The translations under genes were made by a program, and so were the position numbers. A stretch of DNA of 64,000 nt from the IMG/VR virus record IMGVR_UViG_3300049460_000312, positions 186,001-250,000 of that record, one strand, 5' to 3'. This DNA is from a virus. Below the pieces are notes generated by a model. That model made no database searches. It worked only from the letters and a program-made list of their open reading frames with translations, and was not told the DNA's origin. Position 1 is the stretch's first letter. Each line of letters opens with the position of its first letter. Positions 3,915 to 28,230 of the stretch are shown here, piece by piece.

Positions 3915-4247
3915 TCAGTTTGCCGCCGGGTTCGACTTGGGGGCGTAGATCACCGCCTGTTGTTTCGACCAGTCAGCAATCCCCATCAACCGGGCATTGG
4001 CGACCCCGAGCTCTTCTGTGCGCTTCTGGATCAGATCGACGAGCGTCTGTTCCTTGGCGTCACAGGTGAGCTTGCTGTATGCGACAGGTTCGGGTGGGGC
4101 CGACAGAGCAACCTTCTCGGTGAGCTCCACCGGCACCGGCACGAACTTGTTGACGACCTGCACTTCCGGTTCAGGGGCTTTCTGAGGACCCGTGGCACAG
4201 CCCGCCAGCCCGATAGCGAGCACCACTGCAGCAAGTAAATATTTCAT
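3915..4247 (-). CDS. Outer-membrane lipoprotein, putative o-spanin (Rz1-like)
   Basis: Protein of 110 residues with a lipoprotein signal: basic start, hydrophobic core and LAGC lipobox, so the mature protein would start at Cys17. Downstream is a proline-rich stretch (PQKAPEPEVQVVNKFVPVPVEL) then a helical C-terminus. Lipobox plus proline-rich linker is typical of o-spanins that span to an inner-membrane partner to fuse the membranes at lysis. I chose ATG 4247 for its AAGGAG site. It starts 11 bases after the i-spanin candidate, matching Rz/Rz1 order. No sequence-level family match is claimed. Confidence 0.6.
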   Translation of the reverse strand: MKYLLAAVVLAIGLAGCATGPQKAPEPEVQVVNKFVPVPVELTEKVALSAPPEPVAYSKLTCDAKEQTLVDLIQKRTEELGVANARLMGIADWSKQQAVIYAPKSNPAAN

Positions 4248-17288: not shown

Positions 17289-19454
17289 TCAAGGAGCAGG
17301 CGTCACGTCCGTCGTGTCGAGCGCACCCGACACGAGCACCGGCACGCGCGTCTCGACCGTGGTCGGGATACCCGTGACCGTCAGCTTCATCAGAACCGGG
17401 AGGTTCGTGATGTGGCGGAATGCCGGCTGAACCGTGAGTTCCTTGCTGTTCGCACCGTTACGGTGGATCGGCAGGACGACCGTGACTTCCGGCTTCCATG
17501 CCATGTTGCCGAACTGCAGCGGATGCGGAACGCCGTCAGCTGCGCCCTTGACACCGAACGTCACGAAAATCGTGCCGTGCATTGCTTCGTTCTGCGTGTC
17601 CACGATGAGGACTTCTTCGAAGCCACCGCCGATGGTGCGCAGATCGCCTGCAACTTGCAGGTAACGAGCCGTGGTCTGGTCCGTACCGATGATGACGACC
17701 GGCTTGGCCGATTCGCCGCCAGCGAGCATGTCGGCTGCTGCCTTGTAGCCGGACATCTGGTACGCACGGAACACCATGTCGCGGATCACGTTGATCAGCG
17801 TTGCCTGGATGTTCGCAGCGAGTTCAGCGCTGTTACGCGTTTGAACCGTGCTGTCGACCTTGATTTCCTGCTCTTCGTAGTACGCCGTGATCAGGTGGCG
17901 GGCGATGCCCAGCACCATCAGGTTGTCGCCCAGCGGACGACGGCCTTCTTGCACGAGCGCCTTCAGCGTGTCGGCAGCCTTGAACAGTTCCGTCACGGCC
18001 ATGCCCGATGCCATTGCGCGCGTCAGCGTAACCAGCGAAGCCAGGTCGCTTGCGTCCGTCGTGTCGTTCAGGCCTTGCGGGCGCTTCACGGTGAACGGCG
18101 ACAGCAGCGGCACGGCGTATGCCTGCACGTCTTGACGCGTTTCGAGCATCTGACCGATCGAACGACGGTTCAGGTTGGTACGGCGTGCGTCGAGGTCGTA
18201 ACCGATGACTTGTGCGGTCGCGAACAGCGCAACGATAGCAGCCATCGAACCCGACGTCGGCAGAAGCACGTCGCCCGAAGCGTCGATGATCTTGTCCACG
18301 CGAACCGGCGATGCGTTGATTTCCGTGTCACCCTTGTCGCGAACGACCGAACCCGTCACCGTGGTCTTGATGTAGACGACCAGGTTGCCGTCGACCACCG
18401 GCTTGAGCGTGTCGAGTGCGGCGCCTGCGACGTTCAGCGTCGTCGGGTTGATCGACAGCGCGTTGGTTTCCAGACGCACGTCCATGCGTTGCTGGTCGCC
18501 CTGGATCGGGTACACGAACTGCGCGCCCGGCAGATGCGTCGTCGGGAACTTCAGCACGTCGTTGCCGACCTTCACGTACACGGCCTTCATCAGGATGTCC
18601 GTGTCGATCGAATCGGTTTCGTCCATGTGCCCTTGATCCAGCTGCAGATCGGTCTGCGACAGGTCGATCAGGTCGAACACCTTGTTCACTGCCAGCGGCG
18701 CGGTCGTGATCGACTCGCCGTTCACGTCTTGCTGCGACGTTGCGACCAGCGCCGGATCGACGAAGTTCGCCTTCGTTGCATCCGTCACGCGCGGCACGAT
18801 GTGCGTCGACGTCGAGTTGATCAGACCCGGGTTGCGGATCACGTTGACGATGTTGTGGCGGTTCCAGTTGTCCAGCTCGCCGGTGGCCTTACGGCGCACG
18901 CCGTTGATCAGGTTCACCAGGTTGATGTGGATGTGGTAACCTTGCTGGTCGGGAGCGACGACCACGGTCGGGTAGAACGCTTCGCCGAACGCGTCTTGAC
19001 GCGCGGCTTGCAGGTTGTACGCCACCGTGTACACTGCAGCTGCACGGTTTTCCTTTTCGTCGTACGATTCCATCGCCGGTCCGATACGGCCGATGCCGTT
19101 CGACGCTGCGAGGCCGCCTTGCACGTGCGACATGTCGCTGTTGCGCAGGAACGCGCCGATGTCGCCCGACACGGCGCCAGCGTAGACAGCAGCTTCGCGC
19201 TGAGCCGAGGTGAAATCACCTTCGAGGCCAGCGACAACGCTGTTCAGGCCCGACAGGGTCGAAGCCAGGTCCGATGCCGAGACGGCGTCGTCGAAACCTT
19301 CGAGGCCGAGTGCTGCGCCCGAGCCCTTGACGGTGCTCAGACCATCACGGCCCGACAGACGCATTTGGTTTTCGACTGCGTCGATAGCGGACTGCAACGG
19401 CGATTGCGTTTGATGGCCGTTGAAGCCAGCCATCAGTTTCTTCAGTTGAGACAT
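17289..19454 (-). CDS. Major capsid protein (phiKZ type)
   Basis: Protein of 721 residues, close to the phiKZ capsid precursor (about 750). Blocks that I associate with this family are AVYTVAYNLQAARQDAFGEA then FYPTVVV (about 140-166), HIHINLVNLINGV, and near the C-terminus VVLPIHRNGANSKELTVQPA then FRHITNLPVLMKLTV. The alanine/serine-rich first 120 residues would be the prohead segment removed during maturation by the phage protease. Codon use is strongly biased, consistent with high late expression. The gene is followed by a strong terminator. Confidence 0.75.
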   Translation of the reverse strand: MSQLKKLMAGFNGHQTQSPLQSAIDAVENQMRLSGRDGLSTVKGSGAALGLEGFDDAVSASDLASTLSGLNSVVAGLEGDFTSAQREAAVYAGAVSGDIGAFLRNSDMSHVQGGLAASNGIGRIGPAMESYDEKENRAAAVYTVAYNLQAARQDAFGEAFYPTVVVAPDQQGYHIHINLVNLINGVRRKATGELDNWNRHNIVNVIRNPGLINSTSTHIVPRVTDATKANFVDPALVATSQQDVNGESITTAPLAVNKVFDLIDLSQTDLQLDQGHMDETDSIDTDILMKAVYVKVGNDVLKFPTTHLPGAQFVYPIQGDQQRMDVRLETNALSINPTTLNVAGAALDTLKPVVDGNLVVYIKTTVTGSVVRDKGDTEINASPVRVDKIIDASGDVLLPTSGSMAAIVALFATAQVIGYDLDARRTNLNRRSIGQMLETRQDVQAYAVPLLSPFTVKRPQGLNDTTDASDLASLVTLTRAMASGMAVTELFKAADTLKALVQEGRRPLGDNLMVLGIARHLITAYYEEQEIKVDSTVQTRNSAELAANIQATLINVIRDMVFRAYQMSGYKAAADMLAGGESAKPVVIIGTDQTTARYLQVAGDLRTIGGGFEEVLIVDTQNEAMHGTIFVTFGVKGAADGVPHPLQFGNMAWKPEVTVVLPIHRNGANSKELTVQPAFRHITNLPVLMKLTVTGIPTTVETRVPVLVSGALDTTDVTPAP

Positions 19455-20311: not shown

Positions 20312-21847
20312 ATGAAAGATATTCTGCTCCTTATTCGTGCTATCACATTGCTCTTCCGTGAAAGCCAGTTGGACGTTGGCGCGACTAGTTCGCCCGAGAT
20401 TGTGAAAGAAGTAGCAGAGACTGTGAAGCCGCCCGAAATGGCTGTCGGCTCCAGTGACAATGACCGGGACATGGTCATGGGTCTGCGCGGTATGGTGATG
20501 TGGATGGCCTCTAATATGGAAGGCACCAAATACGTCGCCGATGACCTGCTGCAGAAGGTGCGCATGCTCACCCGTCACGACGAATCGCTCTACGATGCGC
20601 TGAAGGAAGGCATCAACGGTCCGATGAGCGAAGAAGAGCTTCGGATCGTCACGGGCAACATCCGTCAGGAACTGAACTCCTACCTGCGGGAAGTGCAGGC
20701 GCTCAACATCATCAAGGAGCATTCCCGCAAGGCGTCGTTCAACCGGGAAGACATTGCCAACCTGCCGGAGTTCATCGCCCAGTTCCGTTCGCAACTGGAA
20801 CAGTATGAAACCAATGTCAAGGAGCGTGACCCAGCGATCGTCGGTGAAGTGAAGCTCAGCGAGACGGATCATGTCGAATCGGTATTCAGGCAGGCCAAGG
20901 AGCTGAATAACGAAAACGGCATTATGAAGACCGGCTGGCAGGCATTGAACCGCATGCTGCAGGGTGGCTTCCGGCGGGGCGAAGAAGTGGTGATTGGCGC
21001 GCTCCAGCACAACTTCAAGACCGGCTTCTCGCTCTCGCTCTTTAAGCAGATCGCGCTTTACAATAAGCCGTACATGATCGACGAGAAAAAGAAACCGCTG
21101 CTGTTGCGGATTTCCTTCGAAGATCCGTTGTCGCTCAACTTCCCGTTCCTCTACAGAAACATCAAGGAGAACGAGACGCTGGAGCATGCCGACGTGACCA
21201 ACACGTCGGAAGCGGAGATGTCGGCGTACATCCACGAGAAACTGACGGTCAACGGTTACGAGATCATGCTCGTGCACGTCAACCCGTCGTTGTGGGGCTA
21301 TCGTGACGTGCAGAACTATGTCTTGAGTCTGGAAGCCCAGGGCTACGAGATTCACATGCTGATGCTCGATTACCTGAACATGCTCGATAAGCGTGGTCTG
21401 GATAATAACGGGCCGATGGGTTCGAACATTCGTGACCTGTTCCGTCGCATGCGTAACTTCTGCTCGCCGCGCAAGATCACGCTGATCACGCCGCACCAGT
21501 TGTCCACCGAAGCTAAGATGTTGATTCGTCAGGGCAACGAGGAAAGCTTTGTGCGCGATATTGCGAATAAAGGCTATTACGACTCGTGCAAGACGATTGA
21601 CCAGGAAGTCGATCTGGAGCTGTATATCCACATCGTTAAGGCGGACAACAAGTCGTGGCTCACCATTCAGCGTGGTAAGCACCGGCTGATCTCACAGACC
21701 AAGGAAGAGTACAAGTACACTGTGATGCCGTTTGAAGACATTGGTGACATTCGTGATGACATCAATGGCGGGGATACGTCACGCAAGAAGCCAGCAGGAC
21801 CGCAAGAGGGACAACCTGCAGCTTTTTGGGACTTTGATCTCGTCTGA
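20312..21847 (+). CDS. DnaB-like replicative helicase
   Basis: Protein of 511 residues with a RecA-type motor domain in its C-terminal 60 percent. The P-loop region is ALQHNFKTGFS (about 230-240), lacking the canonical GxxxxGK[ST] form but keeping Lys-Thr; phiKZ-family DnaB-like proteins show similar variants as far as I recall. Walker B is HMLMLDYLNML (Asp353), and TPHQLS resembles the helicase QTR/H3 segment of DnaB. The N-terminal 200 residues are helical and would bind primase or loader. It would unwind phage DNA at the fork. Single plus-strand gene with its own terminator in a minus-strand neighbourhood. Confidence 0.72.
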   Translation: MKDILLLIRAITLLFRESQLDVGATSSPEIVKEVAETVKPPEMAVGSSDNDRDMVMGLRGMVMWMASNMEGTKYVADDLLQKVRMLTRHDESLYDALKEGINGPMSEEELRIVTGNIRQELNSYLREVQALNIIKEHSRKASFNREDIANLPEFIAQFRSQLEQYETNVKERDPAIVGEVKLSETDHVESVFRQAKELNNENGIMKTGWQALNRMLQGGFRRGEEVVIGALQHNFKTGFSLSLFKQIALYNKPYMIDEKKKPLLLRISFEDPLSLNFPFLYRNIKENETLEHADVTNTSEAEMSAYIHEKLTVNGYEIMLVHVNPSLWGYRDVQNYVLSLEAQGYEIHMLMLDYLNMLDKRGLDNNGPMGSNIRDLFRRMRNFCSPRKITLITPHQLSTEAKMLIRQGNEESFVRDIANKGYYDSCKTIDQEVDLELYIHIVKADNKSWLTIQRGKHRLISQTKEEYKYTVMPFEDIGDIRDDINGGDTSRKKPAGPQEGQPAAFWDFDLV

Positions 21848-21904: not shown

Positions 21905-22249
21905 TTATGCCGCATGAAGCGAGCCGGAGGTAATGAATGCGAGCCGATTCCTGGCCAGATCGTAGGTCACCCCGCAGTACACCAATTCCTGAACGATCTC
22001 GTGTGTGGCGACCAGCTTGAAGACTTCGATCGGAAGACGGAAGTAGATCGTCGAATTGAAGACGGCGTCCACCATCGGCAGCGAGTCGGTCATCGTGACA
22101 AAAGCCAGCTTGTCCAGTACCAGCAGCGCGTGAACGTCGGGTCGACGGGCGCGCTTGTTCTTGACGTGGTCATACAGGCAGTAGCCTGACAGCGAACTGA
22201 ACAAATCGTACAGTTCCTGATTTGTCATGTGTTTGATTTCTTTGTTCAC
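21905..22249 (-). CDS. Hypothetical protein, GTG start
   Basis: Protein of 114 residues. I prefer the GTG at 22249 because AGGGAG lies 6 bases before it; the in-frame ATG at 22228 has no site. Hydrophobic-rich beta/alpha composition without membrane segments. Function unknown; accessory early region. Confidence 0.55.
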   Translation of the reverse strand: MNKEIKHMTNQELYDLFSSLSGYCLYDHVKNKRARRPDVHALLVLDKLAFVTMTDSLPMVDAVFNSTIYFRLPIEVFKLVATHEIVQELVYCGVTYDLARNRLAFITSGSLHAA

Positions 22250-22315
22250 GTTTCACTCCCTATTGGAGGCGTAAGTCAGGCACGCCGTACTTCGACCTCA
22301 CGGTCGCTCTCGCTC

Positions 22316-22630
22316 TTATGCCGGTTTTTGCACTGTCTTCATAAAAGCAAGTGCATCGTCAAGTGCCGTGCCCACATCATCTCGCGGGTACGAACAGAAC
22401 ATCTGAGTCTGAACCGTGCCGAAGATCAATCCTTCCGGTTGGTTGACGCTCACAAACCAGATGTAATCCAGATTACCCGTCTCTTTCCAGAGACGGTATT
22501 CCAGATTGCATTCCCAGGTGATCTTTTCCAACTCGTTCAATTTCTCTACGTGACAGGCCCAATTCACCGCAGGAGGGCGCTCGAACTTCGCATTCGGATC
22601 ATACACGGGGCGCTTGGATCGTCTGGTCAT
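22316..22630 (-). CDS. Hypothetical protein
   Basis: Protein of 104 residues with a strong ribosome site (TAGGAGGTAAT). Basic first 15 residues, several Trp and Tyr. The stop codon TAA lies inside a GGCATAAG box, followed by a short GACC/GGTC hairpin (about 22285-22298). No family recognised. Confidence 0.6.
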   Translation of the reverse strand: MTRRSKRPVYDPNAKFERPPAVNWACHVEKLNELEKITWECNLEYRLWKETGNLDYIWFVSVNQPEGLIFGTVQTQMFCSYPRDDVGTALDDALAFMKTVQKPA

Positions 22631-22638
22631 ATTACCTC

Positions 22639-23007
22639 CTAGTTAAGACGCATGTCGGGGACACCATAACGCTTGGTAGCGTAGTAGGTGTAGTCCTTGA
22701 ACCGCTGGATATGGCTCAACAGACACTGGTTCACCGGATAACCCAGCTCCCCTTTCGGGCAGTCATGATTGGCCGACGAAGCGATGGCTTGGCGTTTGGC
22801 TTCTACCTGGGACTTCACCACCATCGGCACCTGGCGTGAGTTGTACACGGCCTGCGCGTACTCGTCAGCCTGATCGTATTCGCTGACGATGACATTCGAC
22901 CAGCAATTGTCCTTCTGCTGCTTAGTCGGCAGCGTATCACACGTGGAAACGGCAAACGCCTGAGAGGCCCACAGAGCGATTACGAGAGCCAGGATATAGT
23001 TACGCAT
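22639..23007 (-). CDS. Secreted Cys-rich protein (signal peptide)
   Basis: Protein of 122 residues with a signal peptide (MRNYILALVIALWASQAFA, cleavage after AFA). The mature part has four cysteines (STCDTL, DNCWS, HDCPK, NQCLL), likely two disulphides in the periplasm. The C..(K/E)Q..xxC...YDQAD pattern loosely resembles LprI/DUF1311 proteins, some of which inhibit lysozyme; this is tentative. I start at ATG 23007, 7 bases from AGGAGG; an ATG 6 bases upstream is too close to the site. Confidence 0.62.
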   Translation of the reverse strand: MRNYILALVIALWASQAFAVSTCDTLPTKQQKDNCWSNVIVSEYDQADEYAQAVYNSRQVPMVVKSQVEAKRQAIASSANHDCPKGELGYPVNQCLLSHIQRFKDYTYYATKRYGVPDMRLN

Positions 23008-23030
23008 AGCCATCCCTCCTTAACGGCATA

Positions 23031-23052
23031 GAGAGCGGATTAGACCGCTCCC
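23031..23052 (-). terminator. Terminator after sspB-like gene
   Basis: GAGAGCGG/CCGCTCCC hairpin followed on the minus strand by TATGCCGTTAAGG, the last bases overlapping the ribosome site of the next gene. Confidence 0.65.
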
Positions 23053-23075
23053 TGTGCATGTTTAACTGCGTCTTG

Positions 23076-23477
23076 TTACCTGACCACTGACAGGAAGCTC
23101 TTTTTCGGTGCCGTTTCCTCAACTGCTTTCGCTGGAGCGGGTTCAACGGGACTTTCCGGCTTCGGCTCGAACTGGAATGCCATGCCTTCCTGGGTTTCTC
23201 GCGCAAAGAGCGCCACCACGTTATCGACCGGCACTTCAATCTGGAAGAGCTTGCCGGAGAAGCGCGCATTGAACTCGATCAGTTCATTGCCCATCCGCAA
23301 CTGGGTGGTCGCCTGTACGCTAATGTCTAGCGTGATCGAGTCGTCCTTCACATGCTGCATCGGCACGCGGGTGCGGCTATCGACCTGCACCGTGAGATAC
23401 GGCGTGTAGTTGTTGTCGGTGCACCACTCATAGAGGGCGCGCAGGAAGTACGGCTTCTGGGAAGTAGATTGACTCAT
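23076..23477 (-). CDS. sspB: SspB-like ClpXP adaptor
   Basis: Protein of 133 residues. Residues about 8-105 follow the SspB fold closely: KPYFLRALYEWCTDNNYTPY, VPMQHVKDDSITLDISVQAT, EFNARFSGK and VPVDNVVALFARE match the bacterial blocks RPYLLRA(L/Y)YEW, VP...V.DG.I.LNI...A, F.ARFGG and VP..AV.AIYARE. Bacterial SspB tethers ssrA-tagged and other substrates to the ClpXP protease. After a Pro/Glu linker the protein ends KKSFLSVVR, matching the SspB C-terminal ClpX-docking peptide (LRVVK). Both substrate-binding and ClpX-binding parts are therefore kept, so it could redirect host proteolysis. It is shorter than E. coli SspB (165) mainly in the linker. Confidence 0.85.
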   Translation of the reverse strand: MSQSTSQKPYFLRALYEWCTDNNYTPYLTVQVDSRTRVPMQHVKDDSITLDISVQATTQLRMGNELIEFNARFSGKLFQIEVPVDNVVALFARETQEGMAFQFEPKPESPVEPAPAKAVEETAPKKSFLSVVR

Positions 23478-23515
23478 TATCGGTTCTTCTTCAACTGAGC
23501 ATTAAGTTCATCTCC

Positions 23516-23548
23516 GACACGCTGGACTTTCTGTTCGTCCAGCGTGTC
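23516..23548 (-). terminator. Hairpin between nucleotidyltransferase and sspB-like genes
   Basis: Perfect 12-base-pair stem GACACGCTGGAC/GTCCAGCGTGTC. It lies in a 160-base gap (23478-23638) that also has a small CCCCG/CGGGG hairpin near 23586. No U-tract, so terminator or processing site. Confidence 0.55.
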
Positions 23549-23638
23549 GCAGCCTTGCAGGGAGCGTAGGGCCGCGCCGAGGACTACCCCCGTTGCCGGG
23601 GTAGAGCTCGACCTTCGTCGGCAGGTTTGGCTTGCTCG

Positions 23639-24070
23639 TTACGCACTCTTACGCAGGAGGTTTTCGAGCTCGACGATGTCGTCCATGTCTTGCGCGCGCT
23701 TGTCCTGCGTGCGCTCCGGATTGTTCGCAAGCGCCACCTTCTGCTTGAGGAGTTCTTCCGGGCAGTAGCAGCACACGCCACCGACGACGTGCCACTTGAT
23801 GTCGGTGCGCAGGCCGCGGTGCGCCGCGACTTCACCCAGCAGGTCAGGCAGCACGAGGTGCTCGCCGCGCGAGGTGGTGACCACTTTCGCGCCCTTGCGC
23901 TTCAGGCGATCGTAGAGTTCTGCCGGGATATCGAGATCCAGGTCTTCGGTTTCCTTGCGCAGCCCCAGCATCAGCAGGGCACCACCGGCCGAGAGGACGG
24001 CTTCCTTGATCGTCAGACGATGCTGTTTGCGGAAACGGTCATACGTCGCGATGATAGCAGATTTGTTCAT
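23639..24070 (-). CDS. AbiEii-like nucleotidyltransferase
   Basis: Protein of 143 residues of the minimal nucleotidyltransferase superfamily. Signature SAGGALLMLGLR (GG at 29-30) is followed by TEDLDLDI (Asp43, Asp45, Asp47), giving the G[G/S]...DxD metal-binding set. The C-terminal helix LLKQKVALANNPERTQDKRA then QDMDDI resembles the end of AbiEii/DUF6036-type proteins, where K and D..D also help catalysis. Relatives act as toxins or modify tRNA or proteins; here the target is unknown. I start at ATG 24070, about 48 bases after an early-type promoter box. Confidence 0.65.
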   Translation of the reverse strand: MNKSAIIATYDRFRKQHRLTIKEAVLSAGGALLMLGLRKETEDLDLDIPAELYDRLKRKGAKVVTTSRGEHLVLPDLLGEVAAHRGLRTDIKWHVVGGVCCYCPEELLKQKVALANNPERTQDKRAQDMDDIVELENLLRKSA

Positions 24071-24117
24071 GTTCGAGTAAGTTCTCTCTGAATGAGTAAA
24101 GGGATTACTGCAGGATG

Positions 24118-24126
24118 GTGATATGT
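24118..24126 (-). promoter_or_regulatory. Early-type promoter box (ACATATCAC)
   Basis: Minus strand reads CCACATATCACCATCCTGC, about 48 bases before the nucleotidyltransferase start at 24070. Confidence 0.6.
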
Positions 24127-24151
24127 GGTTAAAAAAGCGACGACATAGAGA

Positions 24152-24168
24152 GGAGGGTGTTTCCCTCC
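24152..24168 (-). terminator. Terminator hairpin
   Basis: GGAGGG/CCCTCC stem after the gene ending at 24184, followed on the minus strand by CTCTATGTCG, a variant of the usual TTTATGCCG flank. Confidence 0.65.
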
Positions 24169-24183
24169 CTCGTTTATACCGTT

Positions 24184-25053
24184 TTACGGCCAGCTGATGC
24201 TCAGATCGCCATTGCACAGCGCATTCATCAGTTCCATCTGCGGTGGCATGATCAGCAGATGCTTGCCCTGGTGCTCCGGCTCGCGCGAAATACCGATCGA
24301 AAACATCGTCGTCAGTTCAGACAATACCGGATGCAGGCCAATGCCCGGACGGAGTCGATAGAGACGATGGACGTATTCCGCCACCGAAATCTCATTTTCA
24401 ACCACCACGGTATCGGGCTCCACCACCCCCCAGTACGACAACGGCGTCGTCTGGAAGAACGGATCGGTATGTTCATCACGGGAGGCCATGCTGGCACCCA
24501 GCATGGCCGACATGGCTTCGCGCAGGGCTGTGACGATATGGACTGCCTGTTCCAGCGCCAGCTGACTAGCTTCTGTCAGTTCTGTACCACCCTCGCCGCA
24601 CTCCGAGATGAAGTTCAGCTTGAGCAGGTAGTTCGAGAAGAAATACTCGAATCCAACGCGAGCCTTCGTCAAAGCACGCTGGTTGCGATCCGATAACAAC
24701 GGACTATAGCCTCGTCCAGCCATGGCTTCCTGAGAGTCACGACTTACCGGCGCGTATAACTTCCCGCTGACCAGGATTGCGCCCGTGGGTGCAAATGTCG
24801 GTCCCGCCGGGTCCGCAGCACCCTTACCAAAAAGGGGAGTGCTGGGTGTGGTCAGACGTCGCGTGGCGAAAGCACGCGTGCTAGTCGGTTCCGCCGCGGT
24901 ATGCATCGAGCCGTGATTACCCGGATCACTCTCCGAGGGTCGGGCGTCATGTGTTTCCTGATGCGCATCCAGTGCGATGGCAGGCGGTAGTTCACCCGAG
25001 GGGGCGAAGCCGTTATCAACTGCAACCGGGACGTCGTTATCGGTGATGGCCAT
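24184..25053 (-). CDS. Hypothetical protein with disordered N-terminus
   Basis: Protein of 289 residues. The first 80 or so residues are polar and low in aromatic content (predicted disordered), the remainder is helical (ASQLALEQAVHIVTALREAM) and globular. No signal peptide or membrane segment, no recognised motif. It follows a small gene group starting at 25637. Confidence 0.6.
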   Translation of the reverse strand: MAITDNDVPVAVDNGFAPSGELPPAIALDAHQETHDARPSESDPGNHGSMHTAAEPTSTRAFATRRLTTPSTPLFGKGAADPAGPTFAPTGAILVSGKLYAPVSRDSQEAMAGRGYSPLLSDRNQRALTKARVGFEYFFSNYLLKLNFISECGEGGTELTEASQLALEQAVHIVTALREAMSAMLGASMASRDEHTDPFFQTTPLSYWGVVEPDTVVVENEISVAEYVHRLYRLRPGIGLHPVLSELTTMFSIGISREPEHQGKHLLIMPPQMELMNALCNGDLSISWP

Positions 25054-25128
25054 GCTTATTTCCTTTACAAAGTTCAGTGGTGGTGTTTCAACGTTCCATG
25101 CCGAGTTGCATTCGGCGGATCTTTTCGG

Positions 25129-25200
25129 TTACGCAACCGGAGCCGCAGCACCAGTCGCATCGAGAGGGGGAATAGCAGCCATCTCACGTAACAAGAGCAT
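25129..25200 (-). CDS. Possible micro-ORF (23 residues)
   Basis: ATG 25200 is preceded by a very strong GGGAGG site at a 4-base gap and directly follows the stop of the 141-residue gene. It would encode a 23-residue hydrophobic peptide (MLLLREMAAIPPL...). It fills part of a 158-base gap. Expression is not proven; it may instead be leader sequence. Confidence 0.3.
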   Translation of the reverse strand: MLLLREMAAIPPLDATGAAAPVA

Positions 25201-25211
25201 CTGCCCTCCCG

Positions 25212-25637
25212 TTAGTTCGGCAGCTTACCTTCGACGAGGTAGGTCAGGATATCGCTGTCGATGTCCTTGATATTACGGCACCCGAGATTGCTCACCAGGT
25301 GTTCCTTGGACATCATCGTGGTGGCGTCCTGGTAGTTCAGCGTGCGGCGTGACTGATCGTTTTGCAGATCACCGAACACAACGACGGTGGTCTTGCCACC
25401 GTCGTAGGGAATATTGCTGATATGCACCAGCGCGATGTCCTTGGGGACTTCCTGCTGTTGCAGGTGCAAGGTGGTGCGAAAGAGGTTGTCCGCCGCGCCG
25501 ACGGGCTTGGCGTAGTCCGGGCGAACTACCACCAGCGCGTCTTCCTTATCCTTGAGGGCGCCTTGCAGGGCGATGATGATGTTCTCGACAAACGTCGGTT
25601 GCTGATACAGCTTCTTTGCGACTTGGGCCTGTGCCAT
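25212..25637 (-). CDS. Hypothetical protein
   Basis: Protein of 141 residues, globular alpha/beta composition (DALVVVRPDYAKP, TTVVVFGDLQND). It is preceded by AGAGGAAAGTAAC. No signal peptide or membrane segment; no family recognised. Likely an early accessory gene by context. Confidence 0.6.
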   Translation of the reverse strand: MAQAQVAKKLYQQPTFVENIIIALQGALKDKEDALVVVRPDYAKPVGAADNLFRTTLHLQQQEVPKDIALVHISNIPYDGGKTTVVVFGDLQNDQSRRTLNYQDATTMMSKEHLVSNLGCRNIKDIDSDILTYLVEGKLPN

Positions 25638-25683
25638 TTTGTTACTTTCCTCTAGTGGTGGTGTGGGTACGGAATAAAAAAGT

Positions 25684-25710
25684 GCCGAGCCGCTCGCTAA
25701 CGGACTCGGC
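25684..25710 (-). terminator. Intrinsic terminator after HD-like gene
   Basis: GCCGAG..CCG / CGG..CTCGGC stem followed on the minus strand by ACTTTTTTATTCCG. It closes the unit of the RelA/SpoT-type HD gene. Confidence 0.75.
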
Positions 25711-25737
25711 CAAAGGAGTAATGATTACCTCAGTACC

Positions 25738-26742
25738 TCAGGAATGCCGACGCTCCAGCTCCTCAATGGCAAACTTCTCATTGAGTAGCACGGGCAGCGA
25801 GACATGGGCTAGCGTCTGCTGTTTGCGCTTAAGAGCCATATTCGGCGAAGCGTTCAACCGGTTCTTGACTTCTTCAATGTACTCGTACACGCGTTGCACA
25901 CACGGAAATTCGCGCGTAGTCTTGCGGTGCTTGTACAGGCACTGTTCGTTGTACGACTTGTTATTGCAGAACGTCGTGACGTGCATGGTGACGGTAGTAT
26001 CTGGGTGGATATGAGCCACGTAGCGCATGATGATGCGGCGCTCCGGACAGCACTCATAGCCAAAGTACAGATTAAGCTCAATCAGCTCCTTGTCATCCCG
26101 CGCATACTCGTCTGTCCAACTCATCTTCTCCAGGCTCGCCAGATCAATGATGTCCTGGAGAAACTCGAAGCGTAAATTCTTCTGGTAATTAGCGTGCGTC
26201 TTGAACTTCAACGCCTCCCCCAGGTACTGACTGCATGCGTCCAGATCCTGCATGCTCGGATTGTCAAACCGGGCGATATTGGAGTTGTCGATCGCGGTCT
26301 CGATCGCCACCTTAATCGCGGCGTAGTCTTGCACTACGCGGTCGGTGTAGGCATCGTACGCTTCACCATCACGACGTACCAAGGCCTCAGCCGTACTCAT
26401 GAGCGATACGGGGATCATGTAATCCTCGATCAAGGTCCGCGGTGTCAGACCTAACTCACGACCATTCTGTAACACTTTGCCGAGCAGGGTTGCACAGACG
26501 CCATGGACCGTACTGGCCCGTTCAGCGACGCGCAACACATGCTGGATATAGGGCCGACCGGTCAGGTCTTTGTGCCCCATGTGGACGGTGTACGCCAGTT
26601 CCAGACACGTATTGCGAAGATCCAGCAGGAAACGTTGCGTATCGCGGGCAGCCTGGTGATTTTGCAGGACTTTAGTTTTCAGCAGCTGTAGCGCGTTATG
26701 CTGTTTCTCTAGCGGTGTCTTCTTTACATCCGTGAGCATCAT
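25738..26742 (-). CDS. RelA/SpoT-type HD domain protein with degenerate active site
   Basis: Protein of 334 residues. Residues about 45-160 follow the layout of the RelA/SpoT/MESH1 (p)ppGpp hydrolase domain: LAYTVHMGHKDLTGRPYIQH then VLRVAE matches A..AH.GQ.R..G.PYI.HPL.VA, and KVAIETAIDNSNIARF occupies the place of K.AD...N. However the key HDxxED box is replaced by LGKVLQNG (about 87-94), so hydrolysis as in SpoT is unlikely. It may bind alarmone or act as a decoy. The C-terminal half is unrecognised, with a Cys pair (ECCPERR). Start ATG 26742 chosen for its AAAGGAG site. Confidence 0.5.
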   Translation of the reverse strand: MMLTDVKKTPLEKQHNALQLLKTKVLQNHQAARDTQRFLLDLRNTCLELAYTVHMGHKDLTGRPYIQHVLRVAERASTVHGVCATLLGKVLQNGRELGLTPRTLIEDYMIPVSLMSTAEALVRRDGEAYDAYTDRVVQDYAAIKVAIETAIDNSNIARFDNPSMQDLDACSQYLGEALKFKTHANYQKNLRFEFLQDIIDLASLEKMSWTDEYARDDKELIELNLYFGYECCPERRIIMRYVAHIHPDTTVTMHVTTFCNNKSYNEQCLYKHRKTTREFPCVQRVYEYIEEVKNRLNASPNMALKRKQQTLAHVSLPVLLNEKFAIEELERRHS

Positions 26743-26882
26743 CCGTCTTCTCCTTTCGCAGTTCATTAAGTTTAACTACTGCTGGTCGTCTCGCCGCTGT
26801 AAATTACGGAGTTTTAGGTGTCTTGTCCCTGCGGCATTGCATATGCGTTAGAGTACAAAATCACTTCTCCTCACAGCTGCTA

Positions 26883-26892
26883 GGATATGTGT
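26883..26892 (-). promoter_or_regulatory. Early-type promoter box (ACACATATCC)
   Basis: Minus strand reads ATACACATATCCTAGCAGC, about 140 bases before the start at 26742. It differs from the consensus at the last AC. Confidence 0.5.
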
Positions 26893-26918
26893 ATTCCCTA
26901 CGATCACAACGGCATAAG

Positions 26919-26938
26919 AGCCCGGGTCACCCCGGGCC
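26919..26938 (-). terminator. Terminator with GGCATAA flank
   Basis: CCCGGG/CCCGGG stem with GTGA loop after the gene ending at 26956; followed on the minus strand by TCTTATGCCG. Confidence 0.8.
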
Positions 26939-26955
26939 TTATGTCTTTTATGCCG

Positions 26956-27873
26956 TCACTCTTGCGGGAAGGTCGTTTTGTTAAACGCCAGGTACGTGTT
27001 CAGATGCACCCGCGCCACTTCCACCGCACCCGACCAGATAAGCTGGTAGGCTCGGTCCATGTGTTCCCACGCCTTGAGCGCCCGCACGCGTTCCTGATCG
27101 CGCAGATCCCAGTGGCGGTTGAGCAACACCTGCACTGACGACTTGTAGATGCCGTAGACCGTATCCGCCAGGGCATCCGGCTTATGGATCAGGTGATGCA
27201 CGATCACCGTCGCCGGATCGAGTTCAGGCAGCGGGCCGAACACTTCGCCGTGCTTGTCAAAATCATGCAGGAAGCGGGTCACCGCCGCGCGCGTGTGCTC
27301 ACCCTGGATAAGCGTGATCAGACGCGAGACTTCGCTGACGATCGACGGAATGCGCAGCTGGATGAAAGCGTCCTCGCCATCGACCCACAAGGCAAAGCGA
27401 ATCACCACGTCCCAGTTCAGTTCCGTGTTCAGGCGCTTCATCGTGATCGAGCTTTCCACCCGCACCTGCGCTTTGGAATCAGCCCGGCGCTGGCGCAGGT
27501 ACTCGTCGATGGTGATCAGCCAGTTGTCGAGCAACTGCGGATCAGCGATCAGCCGGTCCGTCAACTGCAGGCCCGCCGGCAAGAGCTTCTTCTGCACGTA
27601 GTTCTCGACCCGGTGCAGGGTGTGCAGGAAGTTATCCCGCTCGTAGAACGCGTTATACAGCACGGTGCCGGGTTCTTCGGCCAAGTGCATACCAATCCAG
27701 CGGTCTTGGTTAAAACCGCTGTCCAGGGCTGCTGTACGCAGTCCCTTGGCGGCACTGTAATGCCGGGGCGCGCGCTGGTTGCTGAACAACGAATGCACTT
27801 CGACCGAAGGGCCAAAGCACAAAGTTTTTTCCAGGAAATCCTGGAGGGAGAGGGTAGTGGCGACGGCTTCCAT
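26956..27873 (-). CDS. Hypothetical protein
   Basis: Protein of 305 residues, mostly helical, charged, with several His-rich turns (HHLIHKPDAL). No membrane segment or known motif. It begins 12 bases after the end of the secreted-protein gene and shares its transcript. Confidence 0.6.
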   Translation of the reverse strand: MEAVATTLSLQDFLEKTLCFGPSVEVHSLFSNQRAPRHYSAAKGLRTAALDSGFNQDRWIGMHLAEEPGTVLYNAFYERDNFLHTLHRVENYVQKKLLPAGLQLTDRLIADPQLLDNWLITIDEYLRQRRADSKAQVRVESSITMKRLNTELNWDVVIRFALWVDGEDAFIQLRIPSIVSEVSRLITLIQGEHTRAAVTRFLHDFDKHGEVFGPLPELDPATVIVHHLIHKPDALADTVYGIYKSSVQVLLNRHWDLRDQERVRALKAWEHMDRAYQLIWSGAVEVARVHLNTYLAFNKTTFPQE

Positions 27874-27885
27874 GATGTCCTTGAA

Positions 27886-28194
27886 TCAATGCTTTCTGAG
27901 ATAGACGAGATTCCTTTTGCAACTGAGCATGGCCGCGGCACCGGCTTCTTTCGGTGTAAGCGAGGGGCTCTCGTAGATCGAGTCTGCGATGCCTTTAATC
28001 TCAATCGCGGAGGTGGGTCGATCGGCATAGACTTGATCGACCCCTGCGTAAATGTTACCCAACGGTACGCTGCGGTCACGACCTTCAGCGATATGCACGG
28101 CGAGGTCATGCAGGGCAGCACACACTTCACTTTGAGCGAAGGCCTGTGTACTGAGCACCAAACCGAGCGCCAGCGCTGCGAGCAGCTTTTTCAT
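27886..28194 (-). CDS. Secreted small protein (signal peptide)
   Basis: Protein of 102 residues with a clear signal peptide (MKKLLAALALGLVLSTQAFA, cleavage before QSEVC). The mature part has two cysteines (EVCAAL, LSCKRN) that probably form a disulphide in the periplasm. ATG 28194 is preceded by AAGGGAA. First coding gene downstream of a long non-coding stretch. Confidence 0.65.
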   Translation of the reverse strand: MKKLLAALALGLVLSTQAFAQSEVCAALHDLAVHIAEGRDRSVPLGNIYAGVDQVYADRPTSAIEIKGIADSIYESPSLTPKEAGAAAMLSCKRNLVYLRKH

Positions 28195-28230
28195 TGTTGT
28201 TTCCCTTAGCGTAAGATAGTGACAGGCGTA

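Follow-up and report, generated by a model that had tools for sequence, protein, structure and literature searches.

An SspB family gene with a ClpX-docking-type tail in a phiKZ-type jumbo phage

The sspB gene and its genomic setting

The window analysed here, a stretch of 64,000 nucleotides (positions 186,001 to 250,000 of the IMG/VR virus record IMGVR_UViG_3300049460_000312), carries an sspB-like gene on the minus strand at 23076..23477. It encodes a 133 amino acid protein, with an ATG start and its stop codon at 23076-23078, and the G+C content of its three codon positions (0.57/0.39/0.73) resembles that of the neighbouring genes. A sequence-only reading had placed a phage SspB here, and the ORF is found exactly at this position. 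The protein belongs firmly to the SspB family, being matched by Pfam PF04386 (SspB; 102.9 bits against a cut-off of 27 bits, E 2.2e-29, residues 7-120) and by NCBIfam NF008769 ("ClpXP protease specificity-enhancing factor"; 149.5 bits against a cut-off of 135). The SspB models of NCBIfam matching the protein number nine, eight of them below their own cut-offs, and PHROG 8945, annotated as stringent starvation protein Sspb-like, matches as well. SspBs of solved structure match residues 4-105 at E about 4e-24, which agrees with the domain match over about 100 residues described before. A search of viral contigs with the protein returned no close relative of the gene.

The neighbourhood defines the type of phage. 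At lower window coordinates than sspB are the genes for a phiKZ-type major capsid protein (17289..19454, minus strand; PF25620, 660 bits) and, on the plus strand, for a divergent DnaB-like helicase (20312..21847; PF20307, 468 bits; phrog_3213), and these two genes mark the phage as a jumbo phage of phiKZ type. The sspB gene is part of a minus-strand block of ten small, mostly unknown genes (21905..28197). In Burkholderia phage FLC9, the nearest named phage, the order capsid-gp93-DnaB is the same as in the window phage; directly after DnaB FLC9 has a large plus-strand gene, a relative of which is found elsewhere in the window phage, and the ten-gene block is absent at the corresponding place. 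The block looks accessory, since in FLC9 the DnaB gene runs straight into the large plus-strand gene. The early-gene setting proposed for sspB is not supported, as the neighbours are the major capsid, DnaB and genes of no known function, and the octamer TATATTAC, a phiKZ-type early promoter, has a single match across the window, at chance level and 20 kb from sspB. Models of defence systems, compared to the region, gave nothing beyond a weak and partial AbiEii match of one neighbour.

Some other members of the block deserve mention. The gene at 25738-26766 (minus strand) encodes a 342 amino acid relative of alarmone hydrolases (7smg, a (p)ppApp hydrolase, E 2.5e-6), which also matches phage proteins annotated as metal-dependent phosphohydrolases. 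Where LLHDTIED is aligned this protein reads LLGKVLQN, so that the His-Asp pair is replaced by GK, and by its sequence it may be a dead hydrolase which retains alarmone binding. The genes at 22639-23013 and 27886-28197, both on the minus strand, encode small proteins with signal-peptide-like N-terminal stretches, which may be exported.

Substrate-binding domain, linker and C-terminal tail

The SspB substrate-binding domain spans residues 8-103 (23169..23456, minus strand). As the sequence-only reading had anticipated, structure prediction returned the SspB fold: in the AlphaFold2 model, built with 43 relatives, pLDDT is near 97 over residues 11-100 and low beyond, a helix is found at residues 8-21, and the core superimposes in Foldseek on 1ou8 with an rmsd of 0.9 and a TM score, normalised by target length, of 0.93. 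SspB structures fill the first 13 places among the PDB matches; 1ou8 and 1ox9, both in complex with ssrA, and 8et3, a delivery complex with ClpXP, are among them. In 112 sampled host sequences 34 columns of the domain are conserved at 85% or more, and the window protein agrees with the host consensus at 27 of these, among them R72, F73, G75, E94, G98 and F101. Its R93 and E94 align with R91 and E92 of the Pseudomonas protein, so that both residues, modelled as client-contacting in P. aeruginosa SspB in a 2026 study (PMC13251409), are kept. Two substitutions are absent from all 112 host sequences: N51D, at a position which is Asn in 96% of the hosts, and G96Q, at a position which is Gly in 98%. 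Residue 96 adjoins the modelled client surface R93/E94 in sequence, which leaves room for an altered choice of clients.

The domain is followed by a linker rich in Pro, Glu and Ala (residues 104-124, EPKPESPVEPAPAKAVEETAP; 23106..23168, minus strand), which has no predicted secondary structure and a pLDDT of 53-62. The Pro/Glu linker described in the earlier reading is thus confirmed, with six Pro and five Glu in 21 residues. The last nine residues, KKSFLSVVR (residues 125-133; 23079..23105, minus strand), form a ClpX-docking-type tail, and by its sequence the protein therefore carries the flexible linker and C-terminal docking motif of an SspB. In P. aeruginosa the SspB domain contacts the client and replacement of the last eight residues makes ClpX binding about sevenfold weaker (PMC13251409), and in E. 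coli GFP fused to an SspB tail peptide recruits ClpXP (PMC12373786).

The tail was scored over its last eight residues with a position profile built from the C-termini of bacterial SspBs (79 distinct ones), the consensus of which is [RK]-P-x-L-[RKT]-[VI]-[VI]-K. With a score of 5.0 it ranks first among 330 greedy ORFs of the phage, the runner-up having 0.7, and 325 in 1,000,000 random 8-mers of phage composition score as high or higher. All 79 bacterial tails score above it (lowest 12.1, median 22.1). The window tail keeps L at -5 and VV at -3/-2; Pro at -7 and the usual R/K/T at -4 are both changed to Ser, and the last Lys to Arg, and these three changes explain why it falls below the host tails. 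The resemblance to LRVVK noted from the sequence was well seen, while the tail can be called intact for its hydrophobic core only. What remains of that reading as a whole, its early-gene setting apart, is a phage SspB with the expected fold, followed by a linker predicted to be disordered and by a tail of ClpX-docking type. Ser or Thr at -4 was considered as a phage signature and rejected, since Thr also stands there in hosts, namely in 15 of the 30 proteins from the related order.

Compared to the SspBs of beta- and gamma-proteobacteria, such as E. coli, H. influenzae and P. aeruginosa, the window protein shares the Pfam family, the fold and the arrangement of linker and C-terminal docking tail. 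It differs in being phage-borne, in its short linker (about 21 residues), in a tail reading S-F-L-S-V-V-R instead of P-x-L-[RKT]-[VI]-V-K, and in D51 and Q96.

Phage SspBs and the origin of the window gene

SspBs of phages are already known. Pseudomonas phage pf16 gp18 was reported in 2017 (PMC5587285), gp039 of Erwinia phage RAY was named an SspB-like ClpXP adaptor in 2023 and its GFP fusion is cytoplasmic (PMC10299810), PHROG 8945 is such a family, and several phiKZ relatives carry an SspB annotation; the window copy is a further example. PHIKZ232 was one of six overexpressed candidates and was diffuse outside the phage shell, like all but two of the others (PMC10449902).

The C-termini of sixteen phage SspBs, the window protein included, were read from the genes and compared. 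Thirteen have a docking tail of the form L-x-[VLI]-[VI] at the C-terminus, shifted inwards by four residues in the phiKZ type. NCTB ends in KKPTLSVVK, pf16 in KKPTLRVVK and RAY in KKPTLTVVK; SH-Ab 15599 and nACB2 share SKLRIVE, and two IMG/VR contigs have RPGLRLVK and KPKLRVVK. The phiKZ-type tails are PKLTVIKGGKK (phiKZ), KPKLTVIKGGKK (PS119XW), PNLTLIQGGKK (Psa21), PHLRVIQGGKA (D6) and PHLTVIQGGKA (RVTF4). Outside the thirteen, a Vibrio phage SspB ends in SIVK, and the ends of Noxifer (VVSLFPKH) and LucasX (SMADFRARRK) do not match this form; the latter two give the impression of resembling VVSLDAFRKK, the end of another SspB subgroup. When 692 ORFs of the window and the phage neighbourhoods were pooled and scored, all but one of the seven best tails came from phage SspBs. 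As the tail is kept in thirteen of sixteen proteins despite their deep divergence, its retention favours real docking on ClpX; delivery of clients and outcompeting of the host adaptor would look alike in sequence. Most phage SspBs thus have the docking tail in common as well as the domain, so that deletion of the tail would be a simple and informative test in different phages alike.

Among these proteins pf16 gp18 is like the window protein a phage-encoded SspB with a docking tail, and differs in coming from a T4-like phage and in grouping elsewhere in the tree. The passages of the pf16 report cited here emphasise that an acidic region is lost and are silent on the tail (PMC5587285); the retention of the docking tail in pf16 SspB bears on that report. 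RAY gp039 shares with the window protein the description as SspB-like ClpXP adaptor and the origin from a nucleus-forming jumbo phage, while its domain is much more diverged and its place in the tree is another. In PHIKZ232 and its relatives the N-terminal domain is SspB-like and the tail motif is L-T-V-I; PHIKZ232 differs by its length of 302 amino acids, a long insert, a match under the Pfam cut-off and KGGKK after the tail motif.

A few observations concern the genes themselves. The annotated start of NCTB BN7874_154 (L003:3998-4408) at 4061 looks too far downstream, since the open frame reaches back as far as 3998, where there is an ATG, and the extra residues complete the SspB domain. In four diverged jumbo phages, phiKZ, NCTB, PS119XW and Noxifer, thymidylate synthase is encoded no more than a few genes downstream of SspB. 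All three of the Pseudomonas phages D6, Psa21 and RVTF4 have a long SspB-domain gene and, second after it, a gene for an AAA ATPase (BCS1-like in D6), with one gene of unknown function in between.

In the tree of core domains, built on few columns, with long phage branches and with hosts of the order concerned picked by similarity to the window protein, the latter lies inside the SspB clade of one host order (node support 100/97). The closest host protein has 61% identity over 105 residues (residues 3-107 of the window protein), and over the core domain the nearest host SspBs share 50-61% identity with it. pf16 pairs with one IMG/VR contig, the second IMG/VR contig groups with a protein from gamma-proteobacteria, and the RAY and phiKZ SspBs are found elsewhere on very long branches. 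The phage label changes about six times on the tree, at least four of these by well-supported branches. The nesting of the window protein within a host order, apart from the pf16, RAY and phiKZ SspBs, points to a separate acquisition, by which the window copy adds to the known phage SspBs. One genome of the host order of this clade has the tmRNA tag ANDETYALAA, a form known from beta-proteobacteria, and the named phage closest to the window phage by capsid has Burkholderia glumae as its host; the host of the window phage is therefore likely to be of Burkholderiales type.

Proposed role in infection

The partner protease is to be looked for in the host. Neither phage ClpP nor AAA_2 (ClpX-type unfoldase) families were found in the phage, so any partner protease would be that of the host, and host ClpXP appears as the only evident partner for the window SspB. 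ARAGORN found no tmRNA across the stretches covering the phage record, where one 12-bit sub-threshold match was the only other trace. The phage proteome gave no convincing ssrA-like SspB tags in a search based on greedy mechanical gene calls, which a short gene could escape.

The reading which we consider probable is also the simplest, namely that a phiKZ-type jumbo phage captured a bacterial sspB of beta-proteobacterial type and has retained it as a functional adaptor with two ends. The SspB groove of the folded domain would bind client peptides, the Pro/Glu linker would supply reach, and the L-S-V-V-R tail would dock onto host ClpX at its zinc-binding domain, and in this way clients would be passed to host ClpXP while infection proceeds. 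The likeliest clients would be those of the host SspB, that is ssrA-tagged products of stalled ribosomes and regulators of the RseA/MucA type. The additional adaptor would speed their clearance, from which the phage would presumably benefit. If the protein works, phages own a handle on a main quality-control protease of their host.

Sparing of tagged proteins is the opposite outcome. The phage SspB would then fill docking sites on ClpX, ssrA tags or both and deliver inefficiently. A host SspB for it to meet is to be expected, an SspB match being present in 237 of 249 sampled Pseudomonadota genomes, and both the low profile score of the tail compared to host tails and N51D and G96Q at otherwise conserved residues are consistent with poor delivery. 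We nevertheless regard this as quite unlikely, because the window protein has domain, linker and tail all present and a recognisable docking tail, needless for shielding tags, is kept by most phage SspBs of several lineages. The same two substitutions at near-invariant host columns, G96Q being next to the modelled contacts R93/E94, would also fit another use, in which a shifted specificity would direct particular host proteins (e.g. defence or regulatory ones) or phage proteins to ClpXP instead of ssrA-tagged ones. The lack of ssrA-like tags found in the phage proteome and the position of sspB among unknown genes are in line with such retargeting, which is still an unlikely explanation given that the core domain is nested among host SspBs at the identities above.

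A recent capture, of little or no use during infection, would account for the separate origin in the tree, for the lack of a close phage relative and for the absence of the gene at the corresponding place in FLC9. The open frame with coding-type composition, the presence of all three functional regions and the fact that unrelated phages have repeatedly acquired sspB and kept it make this very improbable. A broader and likewise unlikely form of the retargeting is that jumbo phages repeatedly capture the ClpXP adaptor of the host, keep its docking tail and alter the client groove, by which host ClpXP would be turned against chosen host proteins; D51 and Q96 would be part of this alteration.

In LucasX a second protein, LUCX_191 (L005:1037-1744, 235 amino acids), encoded five genes upstream of the SspB, was considered as a hidden SspB, which was not supported. 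Its C-terminus, RPRPQLSIVR, is an SspB-like ClpX-docking tail, by which it is possibly a second ClpX-tethered protein.
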